Shown here: positions 3,958-33,997 of the stretch, one piece after another | Position numbering within the stretch: the first letter of the stretch is position 1 | How the letters are laid out: each line of letters begins with the position of its first letter | IMG/VR virus record: IMGVR_UViG_3300031841_000238 | Location: 1 to 34,443 of that record | Length of the DNA stretch: 34,443 nt | Source: a virus | Direction: 5' to 3' (one strand) | Notes under the pieces: model-generated | The model's database searches: none | What the model was told of the DNA's origin: nothing | Seen by the model: only the letters and a program-made list of their open reading frames with translations | Program-made: the position numbers and the translations under genes

Positions 3958-4550
3958 TATTGTATTACCTTTCCACTAAGTTTTGATTTAATTGTTAAAA
4001 CATTTCCATTTATTTCCTGCAATTTATCATAAACTGTGGTAGCTAAAACTGTATGGTCTTTTGCTTTGTTGTCTTCTTCACCTTGTTTAAACAGGTTATT
4101 GATAGTTGTATATTCTATGCTTACATTTTTACCTTGAAGTAATTGACTTGCTACTTTTGCATACATTTTTTTGTATGCCACTGTGCTACTACCAATAAAC
4201 CCATCCTTAGATACTTCTAAGTCTTGTTGTGTTTCTCCTACAATTAAACAACCTGATGTATGTTCATCAGTGTTACCAGTGTGTATAAGAATATAGGTAA
4301 AGTTTGGCACATCTTGTATGTGTAACATACCATAGTGTGCGTTCTTGTATCTCTCTGAATACTTAGCATGAAAGCCACCTGTCTTTCTAAACTTTATATC
4401 GTATGTGCCTTCAGGTATGCAAGTTTCGTGCATTACTTTTACTGCTTGATACTGGTCTTCAAGTGTATAACACTCAAAAATACCATCTATAAATAGCAAC
4501 CCATTCGTTGCATCTGTTCCAAATTGTGTTCTAACTACTGTTAGTTTCAT
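3957..4550 (-). CDS. DUF5675-like protein, candidate cell-wall-active enzyme
   Basis: A 197-residue protein. I chose the ATG at 4550, preceded by GGAAGGTGG, over an upstream ATG at 4616 because the protein then starts MKLTVVRTQF, the usual start of this family. Visible family marks are YTLED (29-32), PEGTYDIKF (46-54), and YILIHTGN with His90 followed by TSGCLIVG with Cys101. The His/Ser-Gly-Cys order recalls L,D-transpeptidase (YkuD-type) active sites, but the enzymatic activity of the family is not established. Residues ~135-197 form a less conserved helical tail. Lying directly before the holin, it is the best positional candidate for the endolysin-associated function in this phage, alongside the GH24 lysozyme at 20985-21755. 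Confidence 0.65.
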   Translation of the reverse strand: MKLTVVRTQFGTDATNGLLFIDGIFECYTLEDQYQAVKVMHETCIPEGTYDIKFRKTGGFHAKYSERYKNAHYGMLHIQDVPNFTYILIHTGNTDEHTSGCLIVGETQQDLEVSKDGFIGSSTVAYKKMYAKVASQLLQGKNVSIEYTTINNLFKQGEEDNKAKDHTVLATTVYDKLQEINGNVLTIKSKLSGKVIQ

Positions 4551-4641
4551 CCTGTCCACCTTCCTTACAGTTATTACTTCCATGTTTACAGTTACATATT
4601 TGTACGAAAGAACCATCTTCTTTCTTAGTTACCATACACAT
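4531..4641 (-). CDS. Small cysteine-rich protein in the lysis cassette
   Basis: A 36-residue reading frame. It starts at the ATG at 4641, which overlaps the stop of the upstream membrane-protein gene (TAATG), and ends 20 bases inside the DUF5675 gene. It contains Cys2, Cys16, Cys18 and Cys25 plus His20 (FVQICNCKHGSNNC), so it could bind zinc or form disulfides. Start/stop overlaps on both sides, the pattern of the whole operon, and the otherwise empty 90-bp gap argue that it is real. Its Shine-Dalgarno is weak (AGGATTTAGAG). Function unknown. Confidence 0.5.
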   Translation of the reverse strand: MCMVTKKEDGSFVQICNCKHGSNNCKEGGQDETNSS

Positions 4642-4823
4642 TAATCTCTAAATCCTATTGTAAGTAACCATACTGCTAATGTAATTATAGTCGCAACTCC
4701 TGTGATTTGTTGTGCAGAACCAGTTAGTGTAAGCGTAGCAATAACTAAACCAACCAAAGTCCAACTAAGGTTTAATGTTTCTTTTATTGCTGCTACAAAC
4801 CAGGTCCATAACTTCTTTATCAT
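4641..4823 (-). CDS. Small membrane protein with two hydrophobic segments
   Basis: A 60-residue protein. A short basic, Trp-rich N-terminus (MIKKLWTWF) is followed by two hydrophobic stretches, residues ~20-33 and ~40-56, ending in GFRD. It overlaps the preceding gene by four bases (ATGA). Size, topology and position in the lysis cassette suggest a second holin or antiholin-like membrane protein, but no family signature is certain. Phages with two adjacent small membrane proteins often use one to modulate the other. That parallel is inference. Confidence 0.6.
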   Translation of the reverse strand: MIKKLWTWFVAAIKETLNLSWTLVGLVIATLTLTGSAQQITGVATIITLAVWLLTIGFRD

Positions 4824-14533: not shown

Positions 14534-15652
14534 TTAAGCTACTGCTTGAATTTTACAATGGTATGAAGGAGGACCAAATTCAAATCCCATCTCCATATAT
14601 ATTGCTTTACCAATTCTAGCGTTTGCATCTTGGTCTAGGTCACGAACAAACACAGTTCCATATCCTGGGATATTTGTGAATACTGGTTGTATGTAAGCTA
14701 GGTCTAAGATGAAAGCAGTTCCTGTTGGCATGATGTCAGGGTCAATAACCATAAGTCCGATTGAACCGAATGGTGTAATGACTGTATCAATGTCAATTCC
14801 TGCAACATTTCTATCTCTAGGAATGATTGCACCTGCTATATCAACTGTTCCTTTAACAAGTTCATTGTTAAGGTCTAGTAATTGTTGTGGGCTAACACAA
14901 AGTACAGGTTGTTTCATTGGTGCATGGTTGTCATACATCCTCTTTAACGCACCTGAAATAGTTGCGAAACTGATAACTTGTGCAGAACCAGTTCCATCAC
15001 CTGATGTGTCGTTGTAGTAGCAGTTACCACCGAGTGGGTTTACTGCTGCAGAGTTGTCAGCGTTCTTGTTTAATGTAATCCATACATCAAGACCATACAT
15101 TTCTCTTGTTCCTGACCCAGGGGTGACATTAGCACCATCTGAGAAAGAACCATTGAATGCGAACCACTCAACTTCTCTTGCTACTTTTTCCATAGCTTTT
15201 TCAAGCTGTAATGCAAATTCATCATTTACTGGGTTACCACCAAATAATCCTAATTTATCTGCTGCTGTTACTGTTCCATCTCCATCAGATGAATTAGCAA
15301 TATTAGCTGACAAGTCAAAAGGATTTTGGTTACCTGTAGATGCTAAAGCTGTGTAGGTCATTTGTACACCTTTATGGAAAATCTGAGTTACATAAGTATA
15401 TGCAGCTCTATCTCTTCCAAGATATTCTGTAGGTGTAGAACCTTCTTGTCCTTTGGTTGGTTCTCCTGAAATGGTTGCATTATCTTCTACTTGGACTTGC
15501 CAAAATGTAGAGTTTAATACTTTGCCACCATTCAAACCACCAACTGCTGACAGTAAAGGTGTTCTTTGACCACCAACTTTAAACAACTCACCAGTAAAGT
15601 TATTGATGTTTTGTGCATAAATCGTATTGTTAGTTAACGAAATATTTGCCAT
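14534..15652 (-). CDS. Major capsid protein, HK97-fold (DUF5309/SU10-like)
   Basis: A 372-residue protein. The N-terminus (RTPLLSAVGGLNGGKV, 29-44) followed by STFWQVQVEDNA matches the DUF5309/SU10 major-head-protein type, with a spine-helix-like region near residues 160-185 (FALQLEKAMEKVAREVEWF) and late strands DTVITPFGSIGLMVID and FVRDLDQDANARIGKAIYME. Length fits the family. It has a GGAGAAG Shine-Dalgarno, follows the acidic scaffold-like gene, and is followed by a strong terminator, all as expected for a major capsid gene. No N-terminal pre-domain long enough to act as an internal scaffold is present, consistent with a separate scaffold protein. Confidence 0.82.
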   Translation of the reverse strand: MANISLTNNTIYAQNINNFTGELFKVGGQRTPLLSAVGGLNGGKVLNSTFWQVQVEDNATISGEPTKGQEGSTPTEYLGRDRAAYTYVTQIFHKGVQMTYTALASTGNQNPFDLSANIANSSDGDGTVTAADKLGLFGGNPVNDEFALQLEKAMEKVAREVEWFAFNGSFSDGANVTPGSGTREMYGLDVWITLNKNADNSAAVNPLGGNCYYNDTSGDGTGSAQVISFATISGALKRMYDNHAPMKQPVLCVSPQQLLDLNNELVKGTVDIAGAIIPRDRNVAGIDIDTVITPFGSIGLMVIDPDIMPTGTAFILDLAYIQPVFTNIPGYGTVFVRDLDQDANARIGKAIYMEMGFEFGPPSYHCKIQAVA

Positions 15653-16394: not shown

Positions 16395-17444
16395 TTAGGC
16401 TTCTAAAAGACCTGTGACTGCACCTGTTTGTGCTTGTGTTGCACCTAACTGAACTGCACTAGCCGACTCTTGTTGTCTGATAATATTTACAACTTGTCGT
16501 AGTTCTTCTGATTGTCCTAGTTCTGTGCCTTCAATAATGTCTTCAACAGTTGGTACATCTCTACCTTGTGCTAATGCTTGTTGCTGTATAGACCTTACCT
16601 GTTGGAATCCTCTTCTTGCTGCACTAACACTAAGACCTAAATCTTTTAGTTGTTCTGCTACTTCTACAGATATATCTTCACCTGCAAGTAATGCCTCTGC
16701 ACCTATCTGTGCTGTTTCTATTCTCTCTGCAACTATATCTCTTGATGATATTGTTCCAGAAATAATATCTTGACCTATCTGTGGGTCTATTGCAGATACC
16801 AATATCTCTTCATCTGTTAGTACACGATTAAAGTTTCTTAGGTAAAACTCTTTTACTTCTGGTATAGAACCTAATACATTACTTCTTACTGATTCTATTC
16901 TTGCACCTAATTCATCAGGTGATACCACATTTTCTATAAGCTGTGCTTTTCTTTCAGGAGTAAGTATGACATCTGGATTAACATTGATTGCTTCAATCTT
17001 TCTTTTATATCCATCTTCTATCTGTCTATATTCTGCTTCACTGTATTTTACAGTTGCACCATCAGGGTTTAAGTTACCTGCAAATGTTTGTTTATATTCA
17101 GGTGTTTGTCTAACTGCTGCTATAGCTGATGATTCATCTTCACCAAACTTTAGATAGTTTTCTACCCATACATCTAATAAAGGTTTGGATAATAAATTAC
17201 CAAACTTTAATTTACCTTGTTCTGCAATTCTATTTTTTGCTGCATCTGTAAGTTGTGTTGAATCACTTTGAGTTGGAGTGTCTGCTGTGCCTGTGTAGTT
17301 AGAACCACCTAATGTAGTAGATGCTGCTAATGCCTCTTCATAAGACTCTGTATATCCTGCTGTTTGTATAAGCAAGTCTGCTCTTTTTCTATCTACTGTA
17401 AAACCTGTAAGGTCATCTTTTCTAAATAGTTTTACCTGTGCCAT
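16395..17444 (-). CDS. Putative internal/structural virion protein
   Basis: A 349-residue protein of unknown function. Composition is Gln-, Glu- and Ala-rich and largely helical. Recognisable blocks include WVENYLKFGEDESSAIAAVRQ (105-125), LTPERKAQLIENVVSPDELGARI (~160-183), and a C-terminal helical region ending AQTGAVTGLLEA. Serial helices of this kind resemble internal proteins coded beside the large virion proteins of actinophages. The start overlaps the upstream gene's stop (TAATG). It is the last gene before the capsid leader, so its expression unit may end at the AT-rich hairpin. No enzymatic motif. Confidence 0.55.
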   Translation of the reverse strand: MAQVKLFRKDDLTGFTVDRKRADLLIQTAGYTESYEEALAASTTLGGSNYTGTADTPTQSDSTQLTDAAKNRIAEQGKLKFGNLLSKPLLDVWVENYLKFGEDESSAIAAVRQTPEYKQTFAGNLNPDGATVKYSEAEYRQIEDGYKRKIEAINVNPDVILTPERKAQLIENVVSPDELGARIESVRSNVLGSIPEVKEFYLRNFNRVLTDEEILVSAIDPQIGQDIISGTISSRDIVAERIETAQIGAEALLAGEDISVEVAEQLKDLGLSVSAARRGFQQVRSIQQQALAQGRDVPTVEDIIEGTELGQSEELRQVVNIIRQQESASAVQLGATQAQTGAVTGLLEA

Positions 17445-18760
17445 TATGTAGGTACTCCTCTTAATACTCCTGCAGGACTTACACCAAGTGATTGTGCTGC
17501 ATCATCTGTTATGCTGTCTAGTACTTTAGCGTTGTTATTGTTAGCACCATATATCAGTGTTAACTCTGCTGCTTTTGTAGCATCATTAGCATTAAGTATT
17601 TCATAAAACACTGGTGATGTTTCACTCATTCTTTCACCTAGTTTGTTAAATGTAAAGTTTCTCCATGGAGTAGCTATATCTTCGTATGTTAAATTTTCAT
17701 CATAAACACTTGTAGGGAAAATAGTTTTTCTTATTTCTTTAAATCTATTATCTAGCATTAATTGACCAACTTCAGGTGACTCTGCATTTCTATACAACTT
17801 TGCTAACTCTGCTTGTGAACCAGAGTCTAACATACCATACAAAGGTCCTAACCATTTGTATGATGCGTTTTGTACAGTTGCATAACCAGACCTAGTTTGT
17901 GCTAACACACCTTTACCTTCTAGCCAATCGGTAATCTTGCTGTCTATCTTAGGACTTGTACTATCTTCTCCTAATTCTTTTACTTGAAACGCAGCGTAAG
18001 TATCTGAAAACTCTCCTGTAGTTACCATGTCACCGAACCATTGACCAAATGTTTTACCAGTATTTTCATCTATTACTGCATCTACATTAGTTACACCTGC
18101 ATCTCTAAGTGCTTGTGAATAAACTAATCTATTTTCATCTACTAAAACCTTAGCATCAGCAGGTAAGTTTTCATCATCTATACCTCTAGCTTTAGACAAT
18201 ACCAACCAGTCTATAACATCTTGTGTTTGTGTTTCAAACCAATCTGTTGCTGCCCACTCTTCTTGTGTAATATCTCTATCTTCTACTAAACCTTGAATCC
18301 ATAAATTTCTTACTTCTTCATCTGTTTCTAACCAAGGTCTTGCATCAATAGCTGCTTCCATTAAATCCATAAAACCTGTAAAAGGTGAACTACCTTGAAC
18401 TATTACATCTGATGGTAGTTCTGCTAAGGAAACACCAAACAATACAGAGGTTGTCCATACATCATCACTTACTGTTTTTGCAGTAGGTTTTCTTCTACCA
18501 CTATAAAATTGATTTATTTCTTCATCAGTAGTTTCATAACGCATAAAGAAAGGTTGACCTGGTACTTGCCATACAACATACTTTTTACCATCTCTTATCC
18601 ATATTTGTGTATCTTGAAATGTTTGTGGTGGTGGTGTAACAGTTGTAGTAGTAGTTTCTGCTGTAGGGTCAGAGGTAAATGTATAACCCTCTGCAAATCT
18701 TGATGTATCTCCAGGACTAAAATCTTTGGAGTCACCTTCTGAATTGTAATATAATGTCAT
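17444..18760 (-). CDS. Putative virion protein with Thr/Pro-rich linker
   Basis: A 438-residue protein. Residues ~1-32 are polar, then ETTTTTVTPPPQTF (about 35-48) is a Thr/Pro linker like those in the lysozyme and the secreted acidic protein. IWIRDGKKYVVWQVPGQPFF (53-72) begins a compact beta part. The rest is mostly helical, with Trp-rich EEWAATDWFETQTQDVIDWL around residues 175-195. It has an AGGAGA Shine-Dalgarno and lies between the HPr-domain protein and another probable internal protein. No known family is recognised. A structural or ejected-protein role is inferred from position. Confidence 0.55.
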   Translation of the reverse strand: MTLYYNSEGDSKDFSPGDTSRFAEGYTFTSDPTAETTTTTVTPPPQTFQDTQIWIRDGKKYVVWQVPGQPFFMRYETTDEEINQFYSGRRKPTAKTVSDDVWTTSVLFGVSLAELPSDVIVQGSSPFTGFMDLMEAAIDARPWLETDEEVRNLWIQGLVEDRDITQEEWAATDWFETQTQDVIDWLVLSKARGIDDENLPADAKVLVDENRLVYSQALRDAGVTNVDAVIDENTGKTFGQWFGDMVTTGEFSDTYAAFQVKELGEDSTSPKIDSKITDWLEGKGVLAQTRSGYATVQNASYKWLGPLYGMLDSGSQAELAKLYRNAESPEVGQLMLDNRFKEIRKTIFPTSVYDENLTYEDIATPWRNFTFNKLGERMSETSPVFYEILNANDATKAAELTLIYGANNNNAKVLDSITDDAAQSLGVSPAGVLRGVPT

Positions 18761-18763
18761 TTT

Positions 18764-20878
18764 TTATTTCTCCTGTGACATACTAGCAGATTGTTTAAAC
18801 ACACTATCAATTATAGGTTCACTAATCTTCCATGACAATGACCATGTATCACTAATTGCACCCATCTCTTCCCATGTATCTTTACCTATTTGTTTCCAAT
18901 CGTAGTCTATATCTTTTGGTTCTTCACCTTCTATTGTCTTACCACCCATAAATGATGGTATAAAATCTCTTTGACCACCTTGATTTTCTATTGCTTTGTT
19001 ATATGCTTGACCTACATCTACTACTAATATTGCTAATTCATACGCTGTGTATGCAGCTAATGCAGGTAATGATATAGATGATAAACCTAATCTTGGTAAT
19101 ATTTTTGTTAACCCTTGTGTAATTGCAATATCACCTGGGTCAAATGCTTGTGCTACTGCACCTCCTACACCAAATGTTTTACCTACTAATTTTTTAGTAG
19201 TATTAAATAAATTACCAACAAACTCTGGTGCTTGTTTAGCTAATTGTTCAAATCTTTTATATCCACCTTTACCTACTACTTTAGATAAATCTGTTGTTGT
19301 ATCATCTGCAATATCAATAACTTCACCTGCTTGATTTATTGCTTTATTGTTTATATCATCTACTACATTTGTAGGTACTACCTTTACTCCACCTACCTCA
19401 TTTAAATTAATATTTGCATCTATAGGTATGTATATATCTAATGTTTCACCTTTTAATTTTTGTTGTTGCAATAAACCAATCATTTGTACTTCTTTTAAAT
19501 TTCCATCTTGAAGTATTGTTATAGGTATGTTTTGCTTACTAAAAGCACTTACAAGTTCCCCTGCAGGTCTAGCGTGTAGTCCTGCTTCATCTAATACCTC
19601 TATAGTTATAGGTTTATAATTTTCTATATCTAAAGTTTTTACATCATCTACTACATTTGTAGGTGTGTCTATTCCAGTTATATCAATAGTTGGGTCTAGT
19701 GGATTAGAAACAACATTATAAATAGGATTATCAGGTAATACTCTACCCATTTCAAAACCTATCTCATCAGGAAAATTTTCATTCCAAACAGGTTTTGTGA
19801 AAAACTCATTCATTCTATTAGCAACATTATCTGCTGCTATTTCATCAAGTTCTTTACTAGCTTTATCCCATAATATTACATTTGGTCCATCAGGGCTTGT
19901 TTCTTTAAGCACTTCATCAAACCATTCATTTGCATCCTCAAAACCATAAGATACTGCTTTTTCATACATCAAATTATTTTTTTCTATTCCTAATAATTTA
20001 TCGTATATTTTTTGTACATTATTGCTCATTTGAATAGATGGCATGTCACCTGATGAAGTAGCCATTCCAGTGTATTGATAAAACTCTTCATTCAATAACC
20101 TTGAATCTCTGTTTTTTAAATCTAAATATATATTTTGCCCTAGTACAAATTCTTTAGCTTTCTTTGGGAACTCTTGTAAAAACCTTTGGTGCATTTCTTT
20201 TAACTCTTGTATGTTATTTGGTGCAATATATTGTCTTTGAATACCTATATTTCTTTGAACTTCTAAAGTAGGAGGTATTCTATCGTAATCTAGGTCTGCA
20301 TATACATCTGCATTAAATGATGGTCTGTTAAGTTTTTCCAACATGTCTATATAATCTTCACCATAATTAATTAACATTCTCATCTCTATACTTTCAGGCA
20401 TGACATGTCTTATACCAAAGTAAAGTTCTTGTTTATTTATATTTCTTATAACATTGTTGAACATTACATCTATTTTTTCTGCATCTATTGCATTGTCTAA
20501 ATGTTGAGAAAGTTTTCCTTCACTAGTAATTGTTGATAATGTATTCCCTTGTGGAAGTATAGAAGTATTTACTGAAGAACCATCTCCTCCTGCTTTTTTA
20601 TTTAGTTCATACACATCCTTGTGGTACTTTAATAATTTATTTTTTATAAATTCTTCGTTACCTTGTTGTCGCAGAGTTAAAGCATTATTCATTAATTCTT
20701 CTATATCCATGTGGTGATAATCTTTACTTAAAAAAGTTTCTAATGCTCTTTGTCTGTATGATTGTGCAGGGGTTAACTGTTTTAATTCATCTGATACTAA
20801 ATCATCAGTTTGTATTAAACCTTCAAATAGTTCATTGAGTATTCTATCTTTTTCGGAAATAATTTCTTCTATTTCCAT
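18764..20878 (-). CDS. Virion-cluster protein with embedded HPr-like phosphocarrier domain
   Basis: A 704-residue protein. Residues 1-400 are mainly helical and of unknown fold. Residues ~423-500 match the PTS phosphocarrier HPr: ITIEVLDEAGLHARPAGELV (His435 and Arg437 in the active-site motif), a strand IPITILQDG, then IGLLQQQKLKGETLDIYI, the counterpart of the HPr segment after Ser46. Ser46 itself appears replaced by Gln465. The domain is flanked by two PTNVVDD peptides (406-412, 502-508) encoded by perfect 22-bp direct repeats. Residues ~565-625 are glycine/hydrophobic and may insert into membrane (LPALAAYTAYELAILVV). Position between lysozyme and other internal proteins suggests a virion or ejected protein. 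HPr identity is from motif and order, and phosphotransfer activity is untested. Confidence 0.75.
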   Translation of the reverse strand: MEIEEIISEKDRILNELFEGLIQTDDLVSDELKQLTPAQSYRQRALETFLSKDYHHMDIEELMNNALTLRQQGNEEFIKNKLLKYHKDVYELNKKAGGDGSSVNTSILPQGNTLSTITSEGKLSQHLDNAIDAEKIDVMFNNVIRNINKQELYFGIRHVMPESIEMRMLINYGEDYIDMLEKLNRPSFNADVYADLDYDRIPPTLEVQRNIGIQRQYIAPNNIQELKEMHQRFLQEFPKKAKEFVLGQNIYLDLKNRDSRLLNEEFYQYTGMATSSGDMPSIQMSNNVQKIYDKLLGIEKNNLMYEKAVSYGFEDANEWFDEVLKETSPDGPNVILWDKASKELDEIAADNVANRMNEFFTKPVWNENFPDEIGFEMGRVLPDNPIYNVVSNPLDPTIDITGIDTPTNVVDDVKTLDIENYKPITIEVLDEAGLHARPAGELVSAFSKQNIPITILQDGNLKEVQMIGLLQQQKLKGETLDIYIPIDANINLNEVGGVKVVPTNVVDDINNKAINQAGEVIDIADDTTTDLSKVVGKGGYKRFEQLAKQAPEFVGNLFNTTKKLVGKTFGVGGAVAQAFDPGDIAITQGLTKILPRLGLSSISLPALAAYTAYELAILVVDVGQAYNKAIENQGGQRDFIPSFMGGKTIEGEEPKDIDYDWKQIGKDTWEEMGAISDTWSLSWKISEPIIDSVFKQSASMSQEK
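19355..19376 (-). repeat. 22-bp direct repeat, downstream copy, flanking the HPr domain
   Basis: This copy (+ strand ATCATCTACTACATTT at its left end) is identical over 22 bp to 19643-19664. It encodes the second PTNVVDD peptide (residues 502-508). The two copies are 288 bp apart, start to start, an exact 96 codons. Confidence 0.9.
19379..19612 (-). other. HPr-like domain (residues ~423-500 of the 704-residue protein)
   Basis: The codon of the putative phospho-acceptor His435 is CAC, read from + strand GTG at 19574-19576. The HPr fold order (strand, active-site loop with helix A, strand pair, helix B, strand) can be followed through the segment. The final HPr helix is weak or replaced by NLNEVGG. 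Confidence 0.75.
19643..19664 (-). repeat. 22-bp direct repeat, upstream copy, flanking the HPr domain
   Basis: Identical to 19355-19376. It encodes the first PTNVVDD (residues 406-412). Identity ends abruptly on one side and continues on the other only as a short patch after one mismatch (TAAA), so the repeat is specific and not part of a longer duplication. Confidence 0.9.
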
Positions 20879-20880
20879 AG

Positions 20881-20985
20881 TTACTTCTTCAATAATTTAT
20901 CTTTTAATTCTTGAACATCTTCTTTTGTAAAACCATTTCTAGGTGCTTTATCACGATTTTTTTCCAAGTCTTCATATACTCCCAT
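20881..20985 (-). CDS. 34-residue protein between lysozyme and HPr-domain genes
   Basis: A 34-residue frame starting at an ATG that overlaps the lysozyme stop (TAATG), with AGGTGG about eight bases upstream. It begins MGVYEDLEKNRDKAP and ends in a charged helix (FTKEDVQELKDKLLKK). It fills the 106-bp gap between the two large genes, leaving two spacer bases. Short peptides with an FTKEDV-type helix occur in phage structural clusters. Function unknown. Confidence 0.55.
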   Translation of the reverse strand: MGVYEDLEKNRDKAPRNGFTKEDVQELKDKLLKK

Positions 20986-21755
20986 TATCTACCACCTAAT
21001 ATTTTTAGTGCTTCTTCAACAGGGTATTTATTTCTTAAAGCATTCATCTCTGCTCTTTTCATAGATTGTAATCCTGCTAATTGTCTTTGTTTATTAACTT
21101 GTTTCTCCATCATACTTATAGCTAGGTCATAAAACTTACTAGCACTTGGAGGAAAGTCTTGTGGTGGTGTACCAAACATATTTGTTATACCTTCACTTCT
21201 TGATTCTGTATCAATTTCTTCATCTTGTTCTGGCATAGTAGTACTAGTTGTAGATGTAGTAGTACTTGTTGTTGTAGGTTCTTCAGTTACAGGTATTCCT
21301 CTATCTGGGTCTAACGCACCTAATTCAACATTTAATCTATCTATTAGTCCTGGAAAGTTTTTTCTATCTTCTTCTGTTATAGATGTATTCCATATCTTTG
21401 CAACCTCATCTGGATTATCTAATAACAACGCATCATAATATTTCTTACTAGATAATTTACTTGGTCTATTAAATGTACCTATAACCATTACATCAAATTG
21501 TGTTTGATTAAATGTAAGACCATAATTTTTTAGTCTTTGATTTACAATTCTTTCTATTTCCTCTAAATCTTTTTCAAGCAATTCATTTGCTTTTTCTTCA
21601 GTTATGGTGTCACCTAATTGAAATTGTTCTCCACCTGATGTATTACTGTGACCATATCCTATTGATACAGAAGCACCATCTGTGTATGCCTCTAATTTTA
21701 ATTCTTCAAGTTCTTTTATAATTTCTATTGCAGGTATTGTTGCTTCTAATTCCAT
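20985..21755 (-). CDS. GH24 lysozyme (muramidase), probably virion-associated
   Basis: A 256-residue protein. Residues 10-150 match T4-type lysozymes: KELEELKLEAYTDGASVSIG places catalytic Glu17 and Asp26 at T4 spacing (Glu11, Asp20). Ser31 stands where Thr26 would be, and YGH (34-36) follows. The fold continues with LEEIERIVNQRLKNYGLTFNQTQFDVMVIG. It would cleave the MurNAc-GlcNAc bond of peptidoglycan. Residues ~160-178 are a Thr/Ser linker (TTTSTTTSTTSTTMP) leading to a helical C-terminal domain (KFYDLAISMMEKQVNKQRQL...EEALKILGG). Location among internal virion proteins, far from the holin, suggests it acts during DNA entry, though a lysis role is also possible. A strong AAGGAGG Shine-Dalgarno precedes the start. 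Confidence 0.8.
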   Translation of the reverse strand: MELEATIPAIEIIKELEELKLEAYTDGASVSIGYGHSNTSGGEQFQLGDTITEEKANELLEKDLEEIERIVNQRLKNYGLTFNQTQFDVMVIGTFNRPSKLSSKKYYDALLLDNPDEVAKIWNTSITEEDRKNFPGLIDRLNVELGALDPDRGIPVTEEPTTTSTTTSTTSTTMPEQDEEIDTESRSEGITNMFGTPPQDFPPSASKFYDLAISMMEKQVNKQRQLAGLQSMKRAEMNALRNKYPVEEALKILGGR

Positions 21756-21756
21756 A

Positions 21757-22830
21757 TTATCCTCCTTCTGCTGCTGCTAAACCTCTAAGGTTTCTTTGCA
21801 TTCTAGCAAATGTGTCATCTTCTATATCTGCTTTTGCTGCTAATGCTTCTCTAGGTGCAAATATTTCATCTAGTACATCTTCACCTGCTTCAGTTAAAAC
21901 TTCAGGGTCTGGTTCTTCTGCCCCTACTTCTGGAACAAACATTGTTTCTCCAGTAAGTGGGTTGTAATCTAATCTTTCTGGTTGTGCAGGTTGTAAGTCA
22001 CCAAGTGATGATGCGTAGTCCTCTGCAGTTACACCTAGTTTGCTCATAATTATTTGTTTCTCGCTTGATGACAATGGACTACCTTTTCTGGTTTCTGCAC
22101 CTGCTAACATATCATCAACAAAATCTGTTAGGTCTTCCTCTGTAAACTGATAAGTTCCTGTCTTGTATGCTTTCTGTGATTGTGAGTAATCATTTAAAGA
22201 CTTAGTTGCATTTATCCATGATACTTTTCCTAAATTATTCATAGAAAAATCCATAGCTAATTTCAAACCTTTAAGTGTTTCTGCATCTGCATAACTTCCA
22301 TAAGTCTTATCTAAATTAATTAATCCTGCATTTGATAATAAATTTTTTGTTGCCACTCTCATAGCAGGAGGTAAAGCATTAAACTGTCTTAATATATCTC
22401 TTTGATAGTAAACATATTTAAATGCCTCTCCACTACCAAATATTTCTCTTCTTTCACTTTGATATAAATCACTTGTTAAAAATTCTTCAGCAGAAACTAC
22501 TTTGACTTTTGGTTTACCAGTGTCTGGTTCTGTTATTACTTGACCATTTTCATCATATTGAACAACTTGATATTCTTTTTCAAACCCTTTACCTAATGGT
22601 TTATTAGGGTCTGATATTTCCATACCGAATATGTCAGCTATTTCCTGTGCAAACTGTGTTGCATTACTTGTTCCTGCAGGAAACATACTTGATGAAGGTT
22701 CTGCTATTTCTTCTGGTGATTTTACTCCAGTATCTTCTTCTACCTCATCTGGCATAAGAAATGGCAAACCACCTGTTTCCTCATTTTCTACTGGTTCTGT
22801 GCCTTCTAAATGTCCTGGTATATGTGGCAT
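21757..22830 (-). CDS. Putative internal virion protein
   Basis: A 357-residue protein. Residues 1-60 are acidic and Pro-rich and probably disordered. The central part (FNALPPAMRVATKNLLSNAG at ~150-170, then TYGSYADAETLKGLKLAMDF) has the look of small helical, peptidoglycan-binding-like modules found in actinophage virion proteins. The C-terminus contains LDYNPLTGETMFVPEVG and ends in an acidic then Arg-rich helix. It shares its start with the stop of the giant gene (TAATG) and lies next to the lysozyme, so it probably works with it in the virion. No enzyme motif. Confidence 0.55.
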   Translation of the reverse strand: MPHIPGHLEGTEPVENEETGGLPFLMPDEVEEDTGVKSPEEIAEPSSSMFPAGTSNATQFAQEIADIFGMEISDPNKPLGKGFEKEYQVVQYDENGQVITEPDTGKPKVKVVSAEEFLTSDLYQSERREIFGSGEAFKYVYYQRDILRQFNALPPAMRVATKNLLSNAGLINLDKTYGSYADAETLKGLKLAMDFSMNNLGKVSWINATKSLNDYSQSQKAYKTGTYQFTEEDLTDFVDDMLAGAETRKGSPLSSSEKQIIMSKLGVTAEDYASSLGDLQPAQPERLDYNPLTGETMFVPEVGAEEPDPEVLTEAGEDVLDEIFAPREALAAKADIEDDTFARMQRNLRGLAAAEGG

Positions 22831-25800
22831 TAGTTATTGACTCCAAATCTATTTAACTCGTAACTAAATACTTCATCAAATACTACCATAAACAGAGGGT
22901 GTTTTGCTATAATCTCATATCCTTTATCATACAATTTCATTCTTATTTCTTGTGCTTCATTAGAGTCATCTGTAATTAACCAGTTAACTGCTTTTAATTC
23001 ATTAGGATAATTCTTTTCAGACTGTATTGCATCTATAGTTATTTGCCTATATTCTACATATTCTTTTATAAATGGTGTTATGTCAAACTCTGCAAACCTT
23101 GGGTCATCAACTGCTCTTACTAAATAGTCTACAAGCACTCCATTCTGTAATCTTTCTGGTAATTCACCACCTAATACTTTATTCATTTGTTCTGATTTAC
23201 CAAAAGCCATAGGAAACCAGTTACCTAGTTTTGCATCTATGACTGCATTTGCAGCTTGTATATTTTCTGGTGAATCTTGACCTGTCGCTATAAGACTTTG
23301 TAATTTGTCATCTTTCGCTGCTCTACCTACGATTGATGATAAAAATCTTTGTACCTCTAAATACATTTCATCTTCATTCTTAGGAGTAATTAATCCTAAA
23401 TATTTAACAGCTTGATAACCACTAAAGTCTATCTTTCCTTCATCTATATTTCTTGAAAAGTATGGTAGTACAGGACCAAAATCTTTAGCTAATTCAGGAT
23501 TTGCATTTACAAATTCATATTCTTTTGTAGTTCTTGGAACTCTACCTGCTTCAGAAACTGTCTTACCTCTAACCTGTAACCCTGCAGATGTAAGTTGTTC
23601 AGTTATGTCATACTTATCTAAACCAAGTAACCTAACAACTTCTAATAATGCGTAATATTCTCCTTGTCTTGGTCCAAGTATAGATGTCCACTGCTTTCTC
23701 ATGTCTTGATAAAAACCATGTATTGCAGCTAACTCAACCATATTGTTGTATGCAATACCTGCTTCATACCCTTCTTCTCCATACCATTCATTAAAACTTT
23801 GTTCATTACCTTCTATCTTGTAAAGCACACTTAGTTTTGGTGCGAATGGACTAACAAATCTATCCCATGTTTTTATTGTGTATAAGTTATTTCTAACTAA
23901 TGCACCTAACTCTTGTATCTTATCTACATCATCTGCATACTCTGGATGTAACTGTGCTGCTATCTGCATACCATTTGTTGTAGAAGAAATCCATATATCT
24001 TCATCTACACCTTCAAAACCTAATGACTTGCCCATAGAATTAAACCAATTCTTTGCAACTGATGGTATTGCCATATCTACTAACTCTGCAGGTAACTCTG
24101 TAAGTGACAATGGCTCATCACTAAAAGGTAACTGAAATCCTGCCATAATGTTTTTTTCTACGAATCTTCTACCTGCAGGTTTGTTTCTAAGAAGAAAACC
24201 TAAAGGCATAGTTATACCATCACCAAGTGATGGCAAGTAACCTACACCACCAACACCTAATGATTTAAGTGGGTAACCTTTTTTAATATATACTCTACTT
24301 TCCTCATCAGATACATCTTCTGTAGCTAAACCACCTAGTTCAGACTTAGTATGTACTTGTAGTGGTGTTCCTGCTGTAGGCATAAACACATACAAATCAC
24401 CGAATCTATCTTGTGCAATAACATTGTTTTCAATACCTCTTCTAACACCCTGACCTATTTGTACAGCAGCTTTAGGATTGTTAGCAGTAAGAAGTAAATA
24501 TCTACCCATGTACTCACGATAGGCTTCAAAGAAAGCAAAAGAACTTCTATATGCTTGTGCAAAATATCCTCTTTCAGTTAAGTTATACAACAAGTTAGCG
24601 TTAGCTTCCATAGCTGCTTCTAATGCTCTTTGATGTATGTCCATAGCACTCATGTTTCTAGTTATGTTTGCTCTAACATCATTCATATCTAACAATGTTG
24701 TATAGCTGTACTCATTCATGTTTTGCATAATGGTGCTAGTTCTAGGATTAAATACTTCTAATGATTTATTCTTTCGGTCAAAAATACCTTTGATAAGTGA
24801 TTTTTCAAATATAGTATCTGCAACAAATGCTTTTTCTTCTATCTCTTTACCTTGCCTACTAGCCAAGTAATTTTTACCTCTAACTATTGGCTCATCACCT
24901 AACGCTTTTACTTGTTTATCATTTAGTAGTTTTTTACCTTTAGTTCTAAGTAAGTTATATACAGCAGAGTTGTTTATTACTTCGTATGTGTCATCTTGTT
25001 TAAACAGTGCTTCTACTATTTCATCACCTTCTTTTATAAGGTATGATTCACCAAAACTAACTTGGTCTGCTGCTAATGCAAGATATTTAACTTTATTATA
25101 TGCTTGTACTCCTGCATCAACTCTTGTATCTTTTACACCTCTGTTTATTTTTACTGATACATCTAATACCCATTGACCCCTTGCTTCATCCCATTTACCA
25201 CCTAGTACATGGTCAGTTAATCGTAATTTATCTTGGTTATCTCTAACAAACATAGACACTGCATCTTTAGTTAAAGAATCTTTACCTGTAAGAACAAGCT
25301 GTCTTGTTTTATATGGTGATACATACAACATAGCTTCTTTACCCCAAGACTCTGGGTTTCCTAAATCTAAACTAAATCCATCTATGTTTGCTTGTGTAAA
25401 CCTATATACCTCATCAATAAGTTCATCAGTAATATTTTGTTTAGGAACAGCTACATTTATTTTTTTACCTAATACTTTTTCTATAGTTTTTCTTCCTACA
25501 TCAAATGTAAGTTCACCACTGTAGTTATTTTTTTGTGACTTACCTTTAGTAGATGCTTGAAACTTACTTTTAATTTCTGTTAGGTTAGGTTGTTTGTTTG
25601 AAAGACCAAGTATATCTTCTAAACCTCTTTTGGTTGCACCTGGTTTACTTAAATAATCTATAGCTTCATTTATTATGATGTCAATATCACTATCTGCGTA
25701 ACCACTATCAAAACTATTTTTAAGTACATCTTTTAATAAATCTTGATTAGGTAATGCACCATTGTAAATAACTTCATCTTTTTTAAAGTTAGTTACAAAT

Positions 25801-28800
25801 GTACCTACCTTAGAATCATCAAATCCTAATCTTCCCTCTGCTATATTATCTGCAGAACCATAAACTAATTTCTCTGCTTCTTGTACATCAGTTGTAAATT
25901 TTATACTCTCTTTGTTCAAAGGATTCTTAGTTATATAGTTAACACTTCTATTACCACCTTGTTCTGTAAATACAGTTGCAGTAAATGTTGTTTCTCCTTT
26001 GTAAGTCTTTTGTGTTACTTGTGGTTTTATATTTACATTTAAAACTTCATCATATTCTTCTAATGTAGATACTGCTCTATCTCTTTCTCTTTGTATTACC
26101 TCAATAACATCATCAGATAAATTAACAACACTGTCTTCATCATTGTGTATTTTAAGTAACTCATCTAACTCTGCTCTTCTACCAAATACAGAAAATGCTT
26201 TAACAAATTCATCATACGCTTGTTTCAAATAAGGTATGCGAATAAATGAACCTTCTCCTTGTGTAGTAGCAAAGAATAAAGAGTTTAAAAGATTTCTAAA
26301 TGTTTTCTTACCTTCTATAATTTGTCTTTCTGCATCTACCTTTGGATATGGTATTTCAAAAGGCAACTTATCTACATTCTTGTTATACAATGTAGCAATT
26401 CTTCTTGATGCTCTTTCTGCTATATCAGGTGTAGTAGAGGATAAATCTCTAAGATTAATATTTCCTATCTTTGCATCAGCAATAACATTTAATAAATCAG
26501 CAGAACCACCTGTGTAATTGTCAATGCTTTGACTGTAATGTTTTGCAAGTCTTAAAAAATCTTCTTCTGTTTGCACAACACCAACTTCTAAGTTTCTTTG
26601 TTTAGGTCCTCTTATTTGAAATCCTTGATTGGCTTCATCAATAATTTTTAAAAATGCAGGTTCTTTTTGTAAAGTCTGTGCTATTTGCTCTAAGGTATAA
26701 CCTTGTCTTTTCATACCTGCTATTGCAGGTGCAAGGTCATCATCAATGTATTTATATAAGAAATATTCGTAAGCCTTTACATGTTCAGGACTTTGTTTGT
26801 TTATAAGCGTATGTCCTGTATTAGTAATAAATCTATTATTTACAAACTTTACATCTGCTGAAAATAACTGTGCTATTTCTGGTGAACCAAACTCTTGGGA
26901 ATCAGATAACACACCTAAAGATTTTCTTACTCGTTTTGGTATTAAGTCATTTAGAAATTTTAATTGTTTTGTAGTTGCTTCTATTTCTTTTGTAGTTCTA
27001 TATGGTCCACTAATCATAGTTGAAGGTTTACCAAATACTCGTGTCAATATACCCTCTGGGTCATTAAGCATAAGTTTTATAGAGTCAATAGGGTTTTTAA
27101 GCATGTTTCTTACACCAAACATATTGAACTTAACCATGGCATCTGTAATAAGTTTTAAAGGATAACTTAATCTAAATAACAAAAATGCAGGGTATCTAAA
27201 GTTCCTCATGTAACCAAACACAAGATTGTCGTATGTCTGTACACCTTTTTCCATAGCATTAAATAAAATGTTAGGGTCATCAAAGTCTGTAAATACATCA
27301 TCAATTACTTCTCTTAGTGGACTTTCCTCTTTCCAAAAATCTACCTTGACACCTTCATCTGCTGCTTTACGCACTATGTCAAAGATTTCTTCATCACCTT
27401 CTTTGTTAGTTAATTTTCTTCTTACTCTTCTTTTAGCAGATGTTGCTCTAAGTAACCCTTGTATGTCAGGTCCATGTATATCTAAGTTTTTTAGCTGACC
27501 ATAAAGTTCTAATGATTGTTTTGTAAGGTGTATCATATCCTGTTCAGAAGCAACAGAACCAAACATTTTATTTGTTATAATGTCTACTTCCATTGGGTCA
27601 TAAAACTCTGGACTTCTTGATGGTGACATAGGTTTAAACTCTGCATCACTAAAACCTTGTTTGTCATTTTTAAGATAGTATTTACTCATAAAGTCATCTA
27701 TCTCATTGTCTGTTAATCCATAAGTACTTTTTAGTTGTAGACCTACTTCACCAAACACTAATTTATTTTGAAATATTTCTTTAGCTTCAAAGTATTGTCC
27801 ATTAGATATAGCATTATAAAACTCTGTAGCCAGTTCTTCTATTCTGCTTTCTGGCACTTTACCTGCATAACCATATCTAATAAAATACTCCATAGCTTCT
27901 TTAGGATTCTGTAAATCTGCAGGTTTTAACTTAGGTAATTTAACATCTCTAGCTAAGAAAGTATCTCTAAAACCACCACCTCTTTTATATGCTGCTTCTA
28001 TACCTTCATCTAACTCTTTATTTATTAATGCTTCTAAGTTGCTTTCATACAACACTTTGGATTGTAGATGTTTGTTTTTACCTCTACCCATAAAATTACC
28101 ACCATAAAACATATCTGTGACATATCCATTTTCTATGCCTTGTTCTAATGTTTGCATTATGTCATCTGCAGTAGTATCAGCAGATTTAATTCTAAAAGCA
28201 AAATCTGGATGAAAACCTTCATTCATCAAATAAGTAGCAACTGGTTTGTTTTCATTTTTTGCTTGTACAATTAAGTTTGCAATACCTTCAAATGTTTCTT
28301 TATTATTATCAAATATCTCTCTAGCAGTTACACCATTGTCTAACTGTTCTGGTAATGACCTACCTAATGATGTAAGAACCTCATCAAAGTTTGCAGCAGT
28401 TGTTCGTTGTAACAATCCTGAACCAGGAACAATGTAATTTAGTGGGTCAAGAAATATATACTTTGCTGTGTTAATTAATCCTGCAAAAAACCCTGCCATA
28501 CTTCTAGTTTTTTCATAACCTATATCTTGTATAGCATTGAACTTTGCTTGTTCTGCGTTATCTAAAATATTAAAATATTGAGTACCAGATATTGTTCCTT
28601 GGTCTAAAGCTAATTGTGCTTCTTGTTCTATCCTGTCATATTCATTATCTAAGTATTCTGTTACATAATTTGCATAACCATAGCTAGTAGATAAGTTACC
28701 TGTTAAACCGAAAACAATACCATCACCTAGTCCTACAGGTATAGCTTGATTAAAAAATGTTTCGTTTAGTTCTTGTTGTCTATCAAACTCAGGGCTTAAT

Positions 28801-29738
28801 GCAACTACATCTGCAATACCTTTTGCACCTGTATCTGGGTCAATAATGTCATCAACAGTCTGAAAAAACAAACCTGCTTTTTCTACAAAAGATAAATCTC
28901 TACCTTTTTCGTTTTTAAGTGCAGTAATCTTTTCTCCAATAATGTCTGGAAACAATTCATTAAATATATCTAAATCTGTTTTTGTTATTAGTGGAGTACC
29001 TTCTTCATCTACAATACCTCTAGCAACTAAAAAATTCTTTGCTGTATCAGATGGTGTGTAGTATGTATCATTGTTAATTATCTTTGCAGTTCTCTGATTG
29101 TTGTAATTTCTAAATGCTTTAGCATGTGCAAGTAAACCAGGTATAAAAGGTAGTTCATTGTCTTTTAAATTTTCATAACCTGCTATTTGTACAACATCTG
29201 ATAATGTTTTACCTTTTTTATTTAACTCTTCTTCTAATGCTGCTTGATATTCAACACTATAATTTCTAACTGTTTTGTCTGTACTTTGTATAAGACCATC
29301 TGCAAATATACGAAGTGTACCAAATAAATAAGAACCAAACTTATCTGCTGCTAGTTTTGCACCCTCTTTTGTAGCTGTACCTACATTTTCAAAAAAGTTT
29401 CCTGTTAGTTTTAACATAAGTGCAGGTCCTAAAGCGTAAGATTGTTTTGTTTTATCTTCAACACCTTGACTTCTATTGTTTGTGTAACTTACAGGTGGTG
29501 TTTTAGTTTGTGACCAAACACTAATGTATTCTTGGTCTGACAAACCCATGTCTGCTGCTGCAGCTATAAACTCAGGGTCTTCTGTAGGTGTAAGTGATTC
29601 TAATTCTTCGTATTTTTGTACAAACTTTTGTACATCTGGTCCTGCATCTGCTTCTGCTTTATTTAATTGTTTATTATAGAGTTGTTCTTCCTTGTAACCC
29701 TTATACCAGTTTTGACTCCAATTTGTCCATAATGACAT
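22830..29738 (-). CDS. Giant internal virion protein (2302 residues)
   Basis: At 6.9 kb this is the largest gene in the window. It is largely helical with hydrophobic patches, for example FFAGLINTAKYIFLDPLNYI (~residues 410-430) and FRYPAFLLFRLSYPLKLITD (~850-870). A block near residues 1705-1745 (NLTERGYFAQAYRSSFAFFE...NNP) and the Trp/Pro-rich segment RFVSPFAPKLSVLYKI (~1950) are patterns I associate with very large virion proteins of actinophages, which also carry FR-x-PAF-type blocks. No protease, muramidase or RNA polymerase signature was recognised. Location directly after portal and two small genes suggests a protein packaged inside the capsid and ejected with DNA, or a tail-length-like protein. 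Start ATG overlaps the preceding stop (TAATG). Confidence 0.68.
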   Translation of the reverse strand: MSLWTNWSQNWYKGYKEEQLYNKQLNKAEADAGPDVQKFVQKYEELESLTPTEDPEFIAAAADMGLSDQEYISVWSQTKTPPVSYTNNRSQGVEDKTKQSYALGPALMLKLTGNFFENVGTATKEGAKLAADKFGSYLFGTLRIFADGLIQSTDKTVRNYSVEYQAALEEELNKKGKTLSDVVQIAGYENLKDNELPFIPGLLAHAKAFRNYNNQRTAKIINNDTYYTPSDTAKNFLVARGIVDEEGTPLITKTDLDIFNELFPDIIGEKITALKNEKGRDLSFVEKAGLFFQTVDDIIDPDTGAKGIADVVALSPEFDRQQELNETFFNQAIPVGLGDGIVFGLTGNLSTSYGYANYVTEYLDNEYDRIEQEAQLALDQGTISGTQYFNILDNAEQAKFNAIQDIGYEKTRSMAGFFAGLINTAKYIFLDPLNYIVPGSGLLQRTTAANFDEVLTSLGRSLPEQLDNGVTAREIFDNNKETFEGIANLIVQAKNENKPVATYLMNEGFHPDFAFRIKSADTTADDIMQTLEQGIENGYVTDMFYGGNFMGRGKNKHLQSKVLYESNLEALINKELDEGIEAAYKRGGGFRDTFLARDVKLPKLKPADLQNPKEAMEYFIRYGYAGKVPESRIEELATEFYNAISNGQYFEAKEIFQNKLVFGEVGLQLKSTYGLTDNEIDDFMSKYYLKNDKQGFSDAEFKPMSPSRSPEFYDPMEVDIITNKMFGSVASEQDMIHLTKQSLELYGQLKNLDIHGPDIQGLLRATSAKRRVRRKLTNKEGDEEIFDIVRKAADEGVKVDFWKEESPLREVIDDVFTDFDDPNILFNAMEKGVQTYDNLVFGYMRNFRYPAFLLFRLSYPLKLITDAMVKFNMFGVRNMLKNPIDSIKLMLNDPEGILTRVFGKPSTMISGPYRTTKEIEATTKQLKFLNDLIPKRVRKSLGVLSDSQEFGSPEIAQLFSADVKFVNNRFITNTGHTLINKQSPEHVKAYEYFLYKYIDDDLAPAIAGMKRQGYTLEQIAQTLQKEPAFLKIIDEANQGFQIRGPKQRNLEVGVVQTEEDFLRLAKHYSQSIDNYTGGSADLLNVIADAKIGNINLRDLSSTTPDIAERASRRIATLYNKNVDKLPFEIPYPKVDAERQIIEGKKTFRNLLNSLFFATTQGEGSFIRIPYLKQAYDEFVKAFSVFGRRAELDELLKIHNDEDSVVNLSDDVIEVIQRERDRAVSTLEEYDEVLNVNIKPQVTQKTYKGETTFTATVFTEQGGNRSVNYITKNPLNKESIKFTTDVQEAEKLVYGSADNIAEGRLGFDDSKVGTFVTNFKKDEVIYNGALPNQDLLKDVLKNSFDSGYADSDIDIIINEAIDYLSKPGATKRGLEDILGLSNKQPNLTEIKSKFQASTKGKSQKNNYSGELTFDVGRKTIEKVLGKKINVAVPKQNITDELIDEVYRFTQANIDGFSLDLGNPESWGKEAMLYVSPYKTRQLVLTGKDSLTKDAVSMFVRDNQDKLRLTDHVLGGKWDEARGQWVLDVSVKINRGVKDTRVDAGVQAYNKVKYLALAADQVSFGESYLIKEGDEIVEALFKQDDTYEVINNSAVYNLLRTKGKKLLNDKQVKALGDEPIVRGKNYLASRQGKEIEEKAFVADTIFEKSLIKGIFDRKNKSLEVFNPRTSTIMQNMNEYSYTTLLDMNDVRANITRNMSAMDIHQRALEAAMEANANLLYNLTERGYFAQAYRSSFAFFEAYREYMGRYLLLTANNPKAAVQIGQGVRRGIENNVIAQDRFGDLYVFMPTAGTPLQVHTKSELGGLATEDVSDEESRVYIKKGYPLKSLGVGGVGYLPSLGDGITMPLGFLLRNKPAGRRFVEKNIMAGFQLPFSDEPLSLTELPAELVDMAIPSVAKNWFNSMGKSLGFEGVDEDIWISSTTNGMQIAAQLHPEYADDVDKIQELGALVRNNLYTIKTWDRFVSPFAPKLSVLYKIEGNEQSFNEWYGEEGYEAGIAYNNMVELAAIHGFYQDMRKQWTSILGPRQGEYYALLEVVRLLGLDKYDITEQLTSAGLQVRGKTVSEAGRVPRTTKEYEFVNANPELAKDFGPVLPYFSRNIDEGKIDFSGYQAVKYLGLITPKNEDEMYLEVQRFLSSIVGRAAKDDKLQSLIATGQDSPENIQAANAVIDAKLGNWFPMAFGKSEQMNKVLGGELPERLQNGVLVDYLVRAVDDPRFAEFDITPFIKEYVEYRQITIDAIQSEKNYPNELKAVNWLITDDSNEAQEIRMKLYDKGYEIIAKHPLFMVVFDEVFSYELNRFGVNN

Positions 29739-32080: not shown

Positions 32081-33997
32081 TTAACTCCAATTATCTATAT
32101 CCATGTTACTAGGTTCGTACCCAGAAAAGCTAGGATTATAATCATATCCTAACTCTGCAAATCTTTCTTTTTGCATTCTTCTTATGGCTCTCATTGGAAA
32201 CCAACTAGCCATAACTATGTCAGTCTTTGTACCCACTGTCTTGCTTTTATTTCTTGCAGAACTAAAATACACTAACTGACTTGTATATAAGTTTACCTTT
32301 TCTTGGGCTTCAAATCCAAGATATGGCAAAGAAATATTTTGTTCTTGAAACATTGGTCGCATAGCTGTCACACCATATATAGGGTCAAATTTATTCTTAT
32401 GAGTTTCGTGACCTTCTAAAAATATACCATGACCTGATGCAAACTCTCTTATGCTTTTATCTTGTCGTATTGCTTTCTGAAAACCATTCTCTTCTATAAC
32501 CCAGTGTGATACATTATATTTCATCCACCATTCTTTTATTATTTCTAATGCTTTTGGAATACCTCCACCTAAACTGTTGTTCATATCTACCATGTGTAAT
32601 TTATTTTCTACTGGTTCGTATGCCCATAAAAATGCTGCTTGATAACCTGTAGATGCAGGGTCTAATCCTGCAATAAGTCTTGTACCATGTGGCACATGAC
32701 CAATATCTCTTTTTTGGTTACGACAGGCTTCTATCTCTTCTCTATCAAATAAAGATAATCCATCTGGCATAGCTACATTAAGATAAACCATTTCGTATAT
32801 GGCTCTACCACCTGTAGTTTCTGCTGCTCTTTTTCTATCCATCAACCATTTGTAAGTTCTTTTACCAGACCACAACATACAATCTACATGTTCCTCTTCA
32901 TCCCAATCTGTTTTGTTACAACCACTATCGTGTGCTTCTTCTACTATTGTTTTCCAAGATTCGTTATCTACTAGGTGGGAATACAGGTCATCATAATGTT
33001 GTCTTGACCCAATAACTACCATAGCTGTATGTTCCTCTTTACGACTTGATAATGTTGTAGTCCACCAGTTTCTTGTGTTTTCTCTTGATGCAGGTTGCAT
33101 TGTAGAACTGTGGTCTTCAATGTCATCAGCAATAATAATGTCACAGTCACGAGAAAGTATTTTACCACCACGACCAATACCGACCATTGTAGGTGACTTA
33201 ATACCTGTAACAGTTCTAGTACCTACAGTAAACTCTGTAGATGACCAAGCCTTACCACTCCTGTTCTGTGGTTTAAATTTTGGTCCTGGTCCACATATCT
33301 CTTCTATCAATAACTCATTGTTTTCTAGTTGGTCCATTACAGAAGATACAGAGTTCTTTGCAATATCTTCATTACCACCAACCCATAAGATTCTTACATT
33401 TGGGTTTTGTGTAATTAACCAAACAACAAAGTGTATAAGTAAATCTGTTTTACCATGTCTAGGTGGTGACAGTATCATCTGTTGTTCACCATTATCTATA
33501 GAAGATAATATTGACTCTATCCACCTAGTATGAAACTTTGGTGTGTCATAAGGTACACCTTGTTCTGTCTGAAAATATCTATTTCTAAATTCTTTAAAAT
33601 GTTCTATTGTTTGTTCTGACTCTACAGGTGACCAAGACTCTTGTAGTTTTTCGTTTTCTAAATCTTCTAAGAAAGCATTGTAAGCCATAGATACAGATGC
33701 AATAGATACATCTAAAACTTTTGCTACATCTGATAATGTCATTTTCTTTATAAGTATTTCATTACCAAGACCAGACTCTTTTAAATCATCATAAACTTTA
33801 CCTCTACGAGTCTGTACATTTTTTTGACTAGGTATATTTAAAACATCTTCTTCTTGTGTCCACTCAATACCTTTTTTCTTTGCCCTTTTCTTTTGTGTAT
33901 TGATTCTGTTACGACATCTCTCACTACAAAACTTTCTAGCTTTAGGAGGTAATACTTTATGGCAACCTGCTGCGTAACATAATTTTTTATTTACCAT
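32081..33997 (-). CDS. terL: Terminase large subunit with N-terminal zinc finger and HTH
   Basis: A 638-residue DNA-packaging motor. Residues 7-28 hold a zinc finger (Cys7, Cys12, Cys24, Cys28 in KFCSERCRNR). Residues 84-113 look like a helix-turn-helix (KKMTLSDVAKVLDVSIASVS). The ATPase follows with Walker A SPPRHGKT (177-184) and Walker B DIIIADDIED (286-295). The RNase-H-like nuclease has Asp446 (AGLDPAS), Glu502/Glu503 (WVIEENGF) and Asp593 (GTKTDIVMAS). The ~125-residue N-terminal extension, with both a zinc finger and an HTH, is unusual. No separate small terminase subunit is seen here, so it may carry out DNA recognition. That is inference, since the small-subunit gene could lie outside the window. 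Confidence 0.88.
   Translation of the reverse strand: MVNKKLCYAAGCHKVLPPKARKFCSERCRNRINTQKKRAKKKGIEWTQEEDVLNIPSQKNVQTRRGKVYDDLKESGLGNEILIKKMTLSDVAKVLDVSIASVSMAYNAFLEDLENEKLQESWSPVESEQTIEHFKEFRNRYFQTEQGVPYDTPKFHTRWIESILSSIDNGEQQMILSPPRHGKTDLLIHFVVWLITQNPNVRILWVGGNEDIAKNSVSSVMDQLENNELLIEEICGPGPKFKPQNRSGKAWSSTEFTVGTRTVTGIKSPTMVGIGRGGKILSRDCDIIIADDIEDHSSTMQPASRENTRNWWTTTLSSRKEEHTAMVVIGSRQHYDDLYSHLVDNESWKTIVEEAHDSGCNKTDWDEEEHVDCMLWSGKRTYKWLMDRKRAAETTGGRAIYEMVYLNVAMPDGLSLFDREEIEACRNQKRDIGHVPHGTRLIAGLDPASTGYQAAFLWAYEPVENKLHMVDMNNSLGGGIPKALEIIKEWWMKYNVSHWVIEENGFQKAIRQDKSIREFASGHGIFLEGHETHKNKFDPIYGVTAMRPMFQEQNISLPYLGFEAQEKVNLYTSQLVYFSSARNKSKTVGTKTDIVMASWFPMRAIRRMQKERFAELGYDYNPSFSGYEPSNMDIDNWS

Follow-up and report, generated by a model that had tools for sequence, protein, structure and literature searches.

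An HPr-like cassette bounded by a conserved in-frame DNA element in a modular phage protein

The HPr-like module

The window analysed here is the whole 34,443-nucleotide stretch of IMG/VR virus record IMGVR_UViG_3300031841_000238, from a marine phage. It encodes a 704-aa modular protein that carries, well inside the chain, a module resembling HPr, the phosphocarrier of the sugar phosphotransferase system (PTS), and this module lies between two copies of a short DNA element (Table 1). A sequence-only reading of the window had placed an HPr-like domain at residues 423-500, and family match, profile search, AlphaFold2 model and structural comparison by Foldseek and VIA all agreed with it. What that reading had not noticed is that the conserved element bounds many swappable cassettes, of which HPr is one. 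The Pfam family PF00381 (PTS-HPr) covered residues 425-482 of the 704-aa protein with 26.3 bits (E 7.9e-6; gathering score, 23), and several relatives scored slightly under the cut-off. The NCBIfam model TIGR01003 also matched the module (E 2.8e-6), under that family's strict whole-protein cut-off. A profile built from 14 homologous phage domains found solved HPr chains (E 1.1e-6), and 25/25 matches belonged to the HPr family. The AlphaFold2 model (pLDDT 89.7) had the order beta-alpha-beta-beta-alpha-beta; its best 30 Foldseek matches were all HPr-family proteins, Crh among them, as were the first 29 rows of the VIA structural realignment (Z up to 7.3). A search of BFVD gave no viral protein with a convincing HPr fold (best E 0.18). 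The PTS-HPr match is genuine and not a chance resemblance.

The open reading frame (ORF) translation places GLHARP at residues 433-438, and the numbering given earlier for His435 and Arg437 was correct. Six columns (D, G, L, H, P and one more G) were invariant in the 14 homologues; the Arg following the active-site His was present in 12/14, and His and Pro in 14/14. Additional HPr lineages (L150, L189 and L209) retained GLH[AM]RP. Between the window-type domain and diverged relatives dN/dS was ~0.26-0.41, which indicates selection acting on the protein; values >1 in some close pairs came from very few changes. As had been read from the sequence, the position aligned with Ser46 is Gln (VQMIGLL in the phage, KSMIGIL in host HPr). 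The importance attached to this change, a loss of control by HPr kinase, did not hold up: HPr kinase was encoded in 0/42 genomes of the probable host family, and the loss therefore probably means nothing there.

Compared with PTS HPr proteins (PF00381) of Bacillus and actinobacteria, the phage module has in common the sequence family, the GLHARP loop with its phosphorylatable His, the beta-alpha-beta-beta-alpha-beta core and the hydrophobic face of helix 2. It differs in lying inside a 704-aa protein, in having no third helix and in the Gln at the Ser46 position, and some phage relatives have lost the Arg. The model lacks the third helix, and we therefore regard the module as a truncated (minimal) HPr, which corrects the sequence-only reading. 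Stand-alone HPr genes are present in phage-labelled records, many of which are gut contigs, prophage or bacterial records, and it is therefore not strictly true that no phage has HPr. Among the phage-labelled stand-alone genes listed, none was shown to be embedded like the window module.

Variable modules and the 28-bp element

Relatives of the 704-aa protein were collected from IMG/VR and labelled with L-numbers. Even in phages with terminases 97-98% identical, identity of the modular protein was only ~60%. Its middle is a variable run of different modules across phages, and HPr is one exchangeable cassette of this run. L008 has no HPr module and retains the remainder of the protein; L007 and L011 carry one more module after HPr, and L009 one before it. 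In L030-type relatives HPr is joined to a 240-aa module (L030:9266-10012) with HDTFGHG and TTETLGQN motifs, which also occurs in cyanobacterial and mycobacterial phages, including an annotated large polyvalent protein of the cultured Planktothrix phage Pag-Yong1. This module matched only phrog_3170 (function unknown), and no solved structural relative was found for it. Several other modules we first took to be ADP-ribosyltransferases; A7 alone was examined by model. The model of this module alignment reached a pLDDT of 82, with weak Foldseek matches, and its structural realignment returned mostly ADP-ribosyltransferase-superfamily rows, the first being a cyanophage pre-ejectosome protein (Z 7.5). 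Matches of other modules to GNAT and methyltransferase families had weak E-values only, and one L034/L143-type module may be ParB-like, judging by its residues. Two or more effector-type domains per chain were seen in relatives; the window protein shows HPr alone. Module counts do not draw on a first clustering, in which multi-domain segments had been merged. As a separate observation, L011 (9555-9860) and L043 share a YRVVPEGV-type module with ~91% identical DNA, the remaining gene being far more diverged; this is a recent cassette transfer.

Modules in the family are separated by the peptide DTPTNVVDD or near variants, and the HPr cassette of the window sits between two such sites. An IMG/VR search for this peptide with fully degenerate codons gave 60 stretches, against a chance expectation of ~0.1 by a rough hand estimate. 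In a non-redundant set, 53 exact peptides were encoded by only 5 different 27-mers; the invariant motif SDTWSLSWK, a control of equal length, had 7 variants in 20 sites. The codons of the element were fixed against background use, the first Asp being GAC in 52/53 compared with 19% elsewhere. Conservation dropped sharply on either side of the element. A frame-blind DNA scan located 77/77 distinct exact 22-mers in frame in a modular-type protein and none elsewhere, and reading frames remained open through every element site.

We found the breakpoints of exchange on the element itself. In 54 site pairs the DNA was at least 80% identical on one flank and <50% on the other. L162 and L132 have unrelated cassettes between the first and second elements, with identities of 99.8% before the first and 98.6% from the second onwards; L192 has another module in place of the HPr cassette of L189, and the sequences on either side of it are 97% and 93% identical; and in the comparison of the window gene with the HPr-less L008, homology resumes at the downstream element copy (96% identity). 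All of the phage sequences are metagenomic and the repeat is identical between genomes, as would be expected if these junctions were assembly chimeras formed at a short repeat. We consider this explanation very improbable, because whole arrays recur in independent assemblies: the window and 3300035070 are 99.9% identical over 2130 bp, L121 (a GenBank contig from a metagenome-assembled genome, MAG) and L184 from IMG/VR are 99.9% identical over 3084 bp, and arrays recur in L189/L207, L192/L196 and L132/L138 (100%). Chimeras would also have to leave the frame open at every site, and the repeat itself would still require explanation.

Phages probably swap the modules by homologous recombination between copies of this short sequence, and a dedicated factor may take part. 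We lean slightly towards the element being identical merely through its spread by recombination, acting as a passive homology handle without a dedicated role as DNA. This account agrees with the in-frame position of all 77 sites in one kind of protein, as expected of a coding linker, and with the absence of integrases and resolvases: no tyrosine or serine recombinase (PF00589, PF00239) was found in 20 records, some of them incomplete. It is less easily reconciled with the degree of identity. Both flanks were available for 48 sites, representing 26 contexts in which neither flank resembles another's, and 80% of the 1074 site pairs with unrelated flanks were identical over 27 bases, compared with 0.5% predicted by codon usage. 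The base preceding the element, a third codon position, was A in 48/48 sites compared with 47% overall, and the core CTACA-AA-TGTAG is an inverted repeat. A more tentative possibility is that the 28-bp element is the dedicated exchange site of an effector-cassette system, served by a phage factor, and doubles as a flexible protein linker; such a system would place cassette swapping, HPr included, in phages of marine Actinomycetota and their relatives. The window encodes a nuclease matching the phage exonuclease family phrog_284, homologues of which are annotated Mre11.

Integrons and shufflons are arrays of exchangeable cassettes with copies of one short site between them. The present arrays have in common with them a short DNA-conserved site between unrelated cassettes; here, however, the cassettes are protein domains in one open frame, and no integrase or resolvase was found in the 20 records. 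The boundary sequences between modules of lambdoid phages, a term that occurs in PMC3029335 and PMC3233612, are likewise short conserved junctions able to serve homologous recombination. In contrast to these, the element lies within a gene, in frame, with several repeats per gene, and is common to phages whose capsid proteins are <50% identical.

Gene context and probable host

The modular gene belongs to a block of virion genes, beside a lysozyme gene, as the sequence-only reading had it. In the relatives checked the order portal, 118 aa, giant protein, 357 aa, lysozyme, 704-aa-type protein, 438 aa, 349 aa, 152 aa, major capsid protein was conserved, and the gene position was kept even in relatives with capsid proteins only 43-50% identical. 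Homologues of the portal candidate, 55-56% identical, lie beside TerL in MAG phage contigs. The C-terminal tail is the most widely conserved part of the family (25 relatives were recovered with it). The whole 704-aa protein had no match among cultured phages or in PHROGs, no related solved structure was found for the head (A1), the tail (A4) or the 2302-aa protein, and a tail profile had no match in genome contigs.

Table 1. Features of the window, with positions and supporting observations
Feature	Positions	Strand	Observation
704-aa modular (polyvalent-type) protein bearing the HPr module	18764..20878	(-)	ORF; close relatives 60-100% identical
N-terminal head, residues 1-393	19700..20878	(-)	conserved in close relatives; different heads elsewhere in the family (alignment A1)
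Upstream copy of the 28-bp element, AGACACACCTACAAATGTAGTAGATGAT	19643..19670	(-)	encodes DTPTNVVDD
HPr-like module, residues 423-500	19379..19612	(-)	with His435, Arg437, Pro438; without third helix
Downstream copy, 22 bp of the element, ACCTACAAATGTAGTAGATGAT	19355..19376	(-)	encodes PTNVVDD; direct repeat of the upstream copy
C-terminal tail, hydrophobic stretch and SDTWSLSWKISEPII motif	18767..19330	(-)	alignments A2, A4
Lysozyme, 256 aa, neighbour of the modular gene	20985..21755	(-)	PF00959, E 8e-15
438-aa protein, virion block, conserved neighbour	17444..18760	(-)	no family match
2302-aa protein, virion block	22830..29738	(-)	no family match; position conserved
Major capsid protein, SU10_MCP family	14534..15652	(-)	PF17236, E 2.5e-42
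Probable portal protein, 592 aa	30302..32080	(-)	by position; no family match
Terminase large subunit	32081..33997	(-)	phrog_38, E 1.9e-63; 75-98% identical in 17 related records

Several other genes of the window were noted. The 2302-aa protein, encoded between the portal and lysozyme genes, had no confident family or structure match. A 575-aa protein (4820-6547) has a signal-like start and long Thr/Ser/Pro-rich and Glu/Val-rich repeats, and in relatives its ends are conserved and its middle is variable. A 277-aa protein with FANADAWMENCETSAIGRALA (429-1262) is reminiscent of phage single-strand annealing proteins; it had matches to phrog_11717 and similar families of no known function, and to nothing else. 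A DUF5675 protein (3957-4616; PF18925, E 1e-29), adjoining small membrane proteins, is possibly lysis-related. No tRNA genes or Rfam families were found.

The closest cultured relatives of the terminase, capsid protein and nuclease are actinophages. An Actinomycetota MAG of ~1.1 Mb yielded one related phage contig to a terminase profile and another to a second search with the terminase; one of these two contigs bears a 1025-aa array at the equivalent gene position. The likely hosts are small marine Actinomycetota. In the family of this MAG, HPr was present in 31/42 genomes and Enzyme I in 29/42, and Ca. Actinomarinales have been reported to possess PTS transporters, unlike SAR11 (PMC7771536). 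A motif scan for the actinophage marker WhiB found none. The two related phage genomes binned in an Actinomycetota MAG (L120-L125; contigs C30 and C36, MAG G028) are assembled beyond unit length, their genes repeating after 43.86 kb and ~43.83 kb, consistent with phage DNA replicating as circles or concatemers.

Polyvalent proteins, encoded near virion genes, are taken to be packaged and injected, and module arrays are their hallmark (Iyer et al., 2017; PMC5512222). The present family has in common with them multiple effector domains per chain (ADP-ribosyltransferase, GNAT, ParB and methyltransferase types) among virion genes, as well as one module found in an annotated large polyvalent protein; by this analogy, packaging and injection of the 704-aa protein would fit. 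It differs in that no metallopeptidase domain was found and in that the modules are joined by a DNA-conserved linker. The words HPr, phosphocarrier, phosphotransferase and linker are absent from the text of PMC5512222. With MuF polymorphic toxins (PMC5576092) and polymorphic toxin systems (PMC3482391) the family has in common a fixed backbone, an exchangeable effector part spread by recombination and a phage head gene context. Here, however, the variable modules are internal and multiple rather than C-terminal only, no immunity gene was identified, and, at the thresholds applied, neither the 704-aa protein nor its neighbours matched a MuF domain in Pfam or PHROGs.

Proposed action of the HPr module

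We propose, with a probability of about 0.5, that the 704-aa protein is a polyvalent protein packed in the virion and that, once ejected, its HPr module acts on Enzyme I of the host; its packaging and ejection, the effect on Enzyme I and phosphotransfer are steps that we infer. The protein has a head and a conserved tail with a variable series of small effector modules between them, and would probably be packed in the phage head and ejected together with the genome. Its modules lie between copies of the in-frame element, at which phages trade them, probably by recombination. Once in the cell, the HPr module would most likely bind Enzyme I through the His loop and the MIGLL helix, a contact suggested by the similarity of this helix to MIGIL of the host protein, and take or block phosphoryl groups. 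At the start of infection, phosphate derived from phosphoenolpyruvate (PEP) could thus be diverted, or the sugar PTS silenced.

Several observations weigh against this proposal. In the AlphaFold2 model a short last strand takes the place of helix 3, leaving two helices rather than the complete three-helix open-faced sandwich of PTS HPr. The Foldseek matches, although all of the right family, were modest (E 1e-3, TM about 0.6). L038 and L040 have HAGP and HMIP instead of HARP, and phosphotransfer therefore need not be the function in all relatives. The host link rests on the nearest cultured relatives and on MAG-binned phage contigs and is tentative, because another match, L085, lies in a MAG labelled Gammaproteobacteria. 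The lack of recombinases described above counts on the same side.

The missing helix, the loss of the Arg in L038 and L040 and the high divergence from host HPr (~36% identity) would also be expected if the HPr fold were reused for structure or binding, with no phosphotransfer. We regard such reuse as unlikely: GLH and Pro are invariant in independent lineages, the Enzyme I-contacting helix resembles that of the host, and most comparisons gave purifying selection. The invariance of the His even without the Arg also bears on another explanation, in which the module does not inhibit but serves as a phosphorylation sensor or an address tag. Enzyme I would phosphorylate His435, or the module would dock the protein on membrane PTS permeases, and this would switch or place neighbouring modules or aid DNA entry. 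The hydrophobic stretch in the family tail and the further large module after HPr in several relatives agree with a sensor or tag, but HPr is the sole recognisable module of the window protein, leaving nothing obvious to switch, and some relatives without HPr (L008) retain the rest. This role, too, seems to us improbable.

Neither an HPr in a virion-block polyvalent protein nor a base-level conserved in-frame exchange element was found in the open-access literature searched, and of the two it is the exchange element that could turn out to be new in kind. It offers a handle to find and sort effector modules in uncultured viruses, one pattern having led to dozens of arrays, and it makes the assembly of multi-effector proteins by domain exchange, so far mostly inferred from mosaic comparisons, testable. 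With a module-swapping system, phages could re-arm this probably virion-packed protein. If the HPr module is delivered with the virion, these phages would reach the carbon uptake and PEP use of their hosts as soon as infection begins, and these hosts rely on the PTS in waters poor in nutrients.
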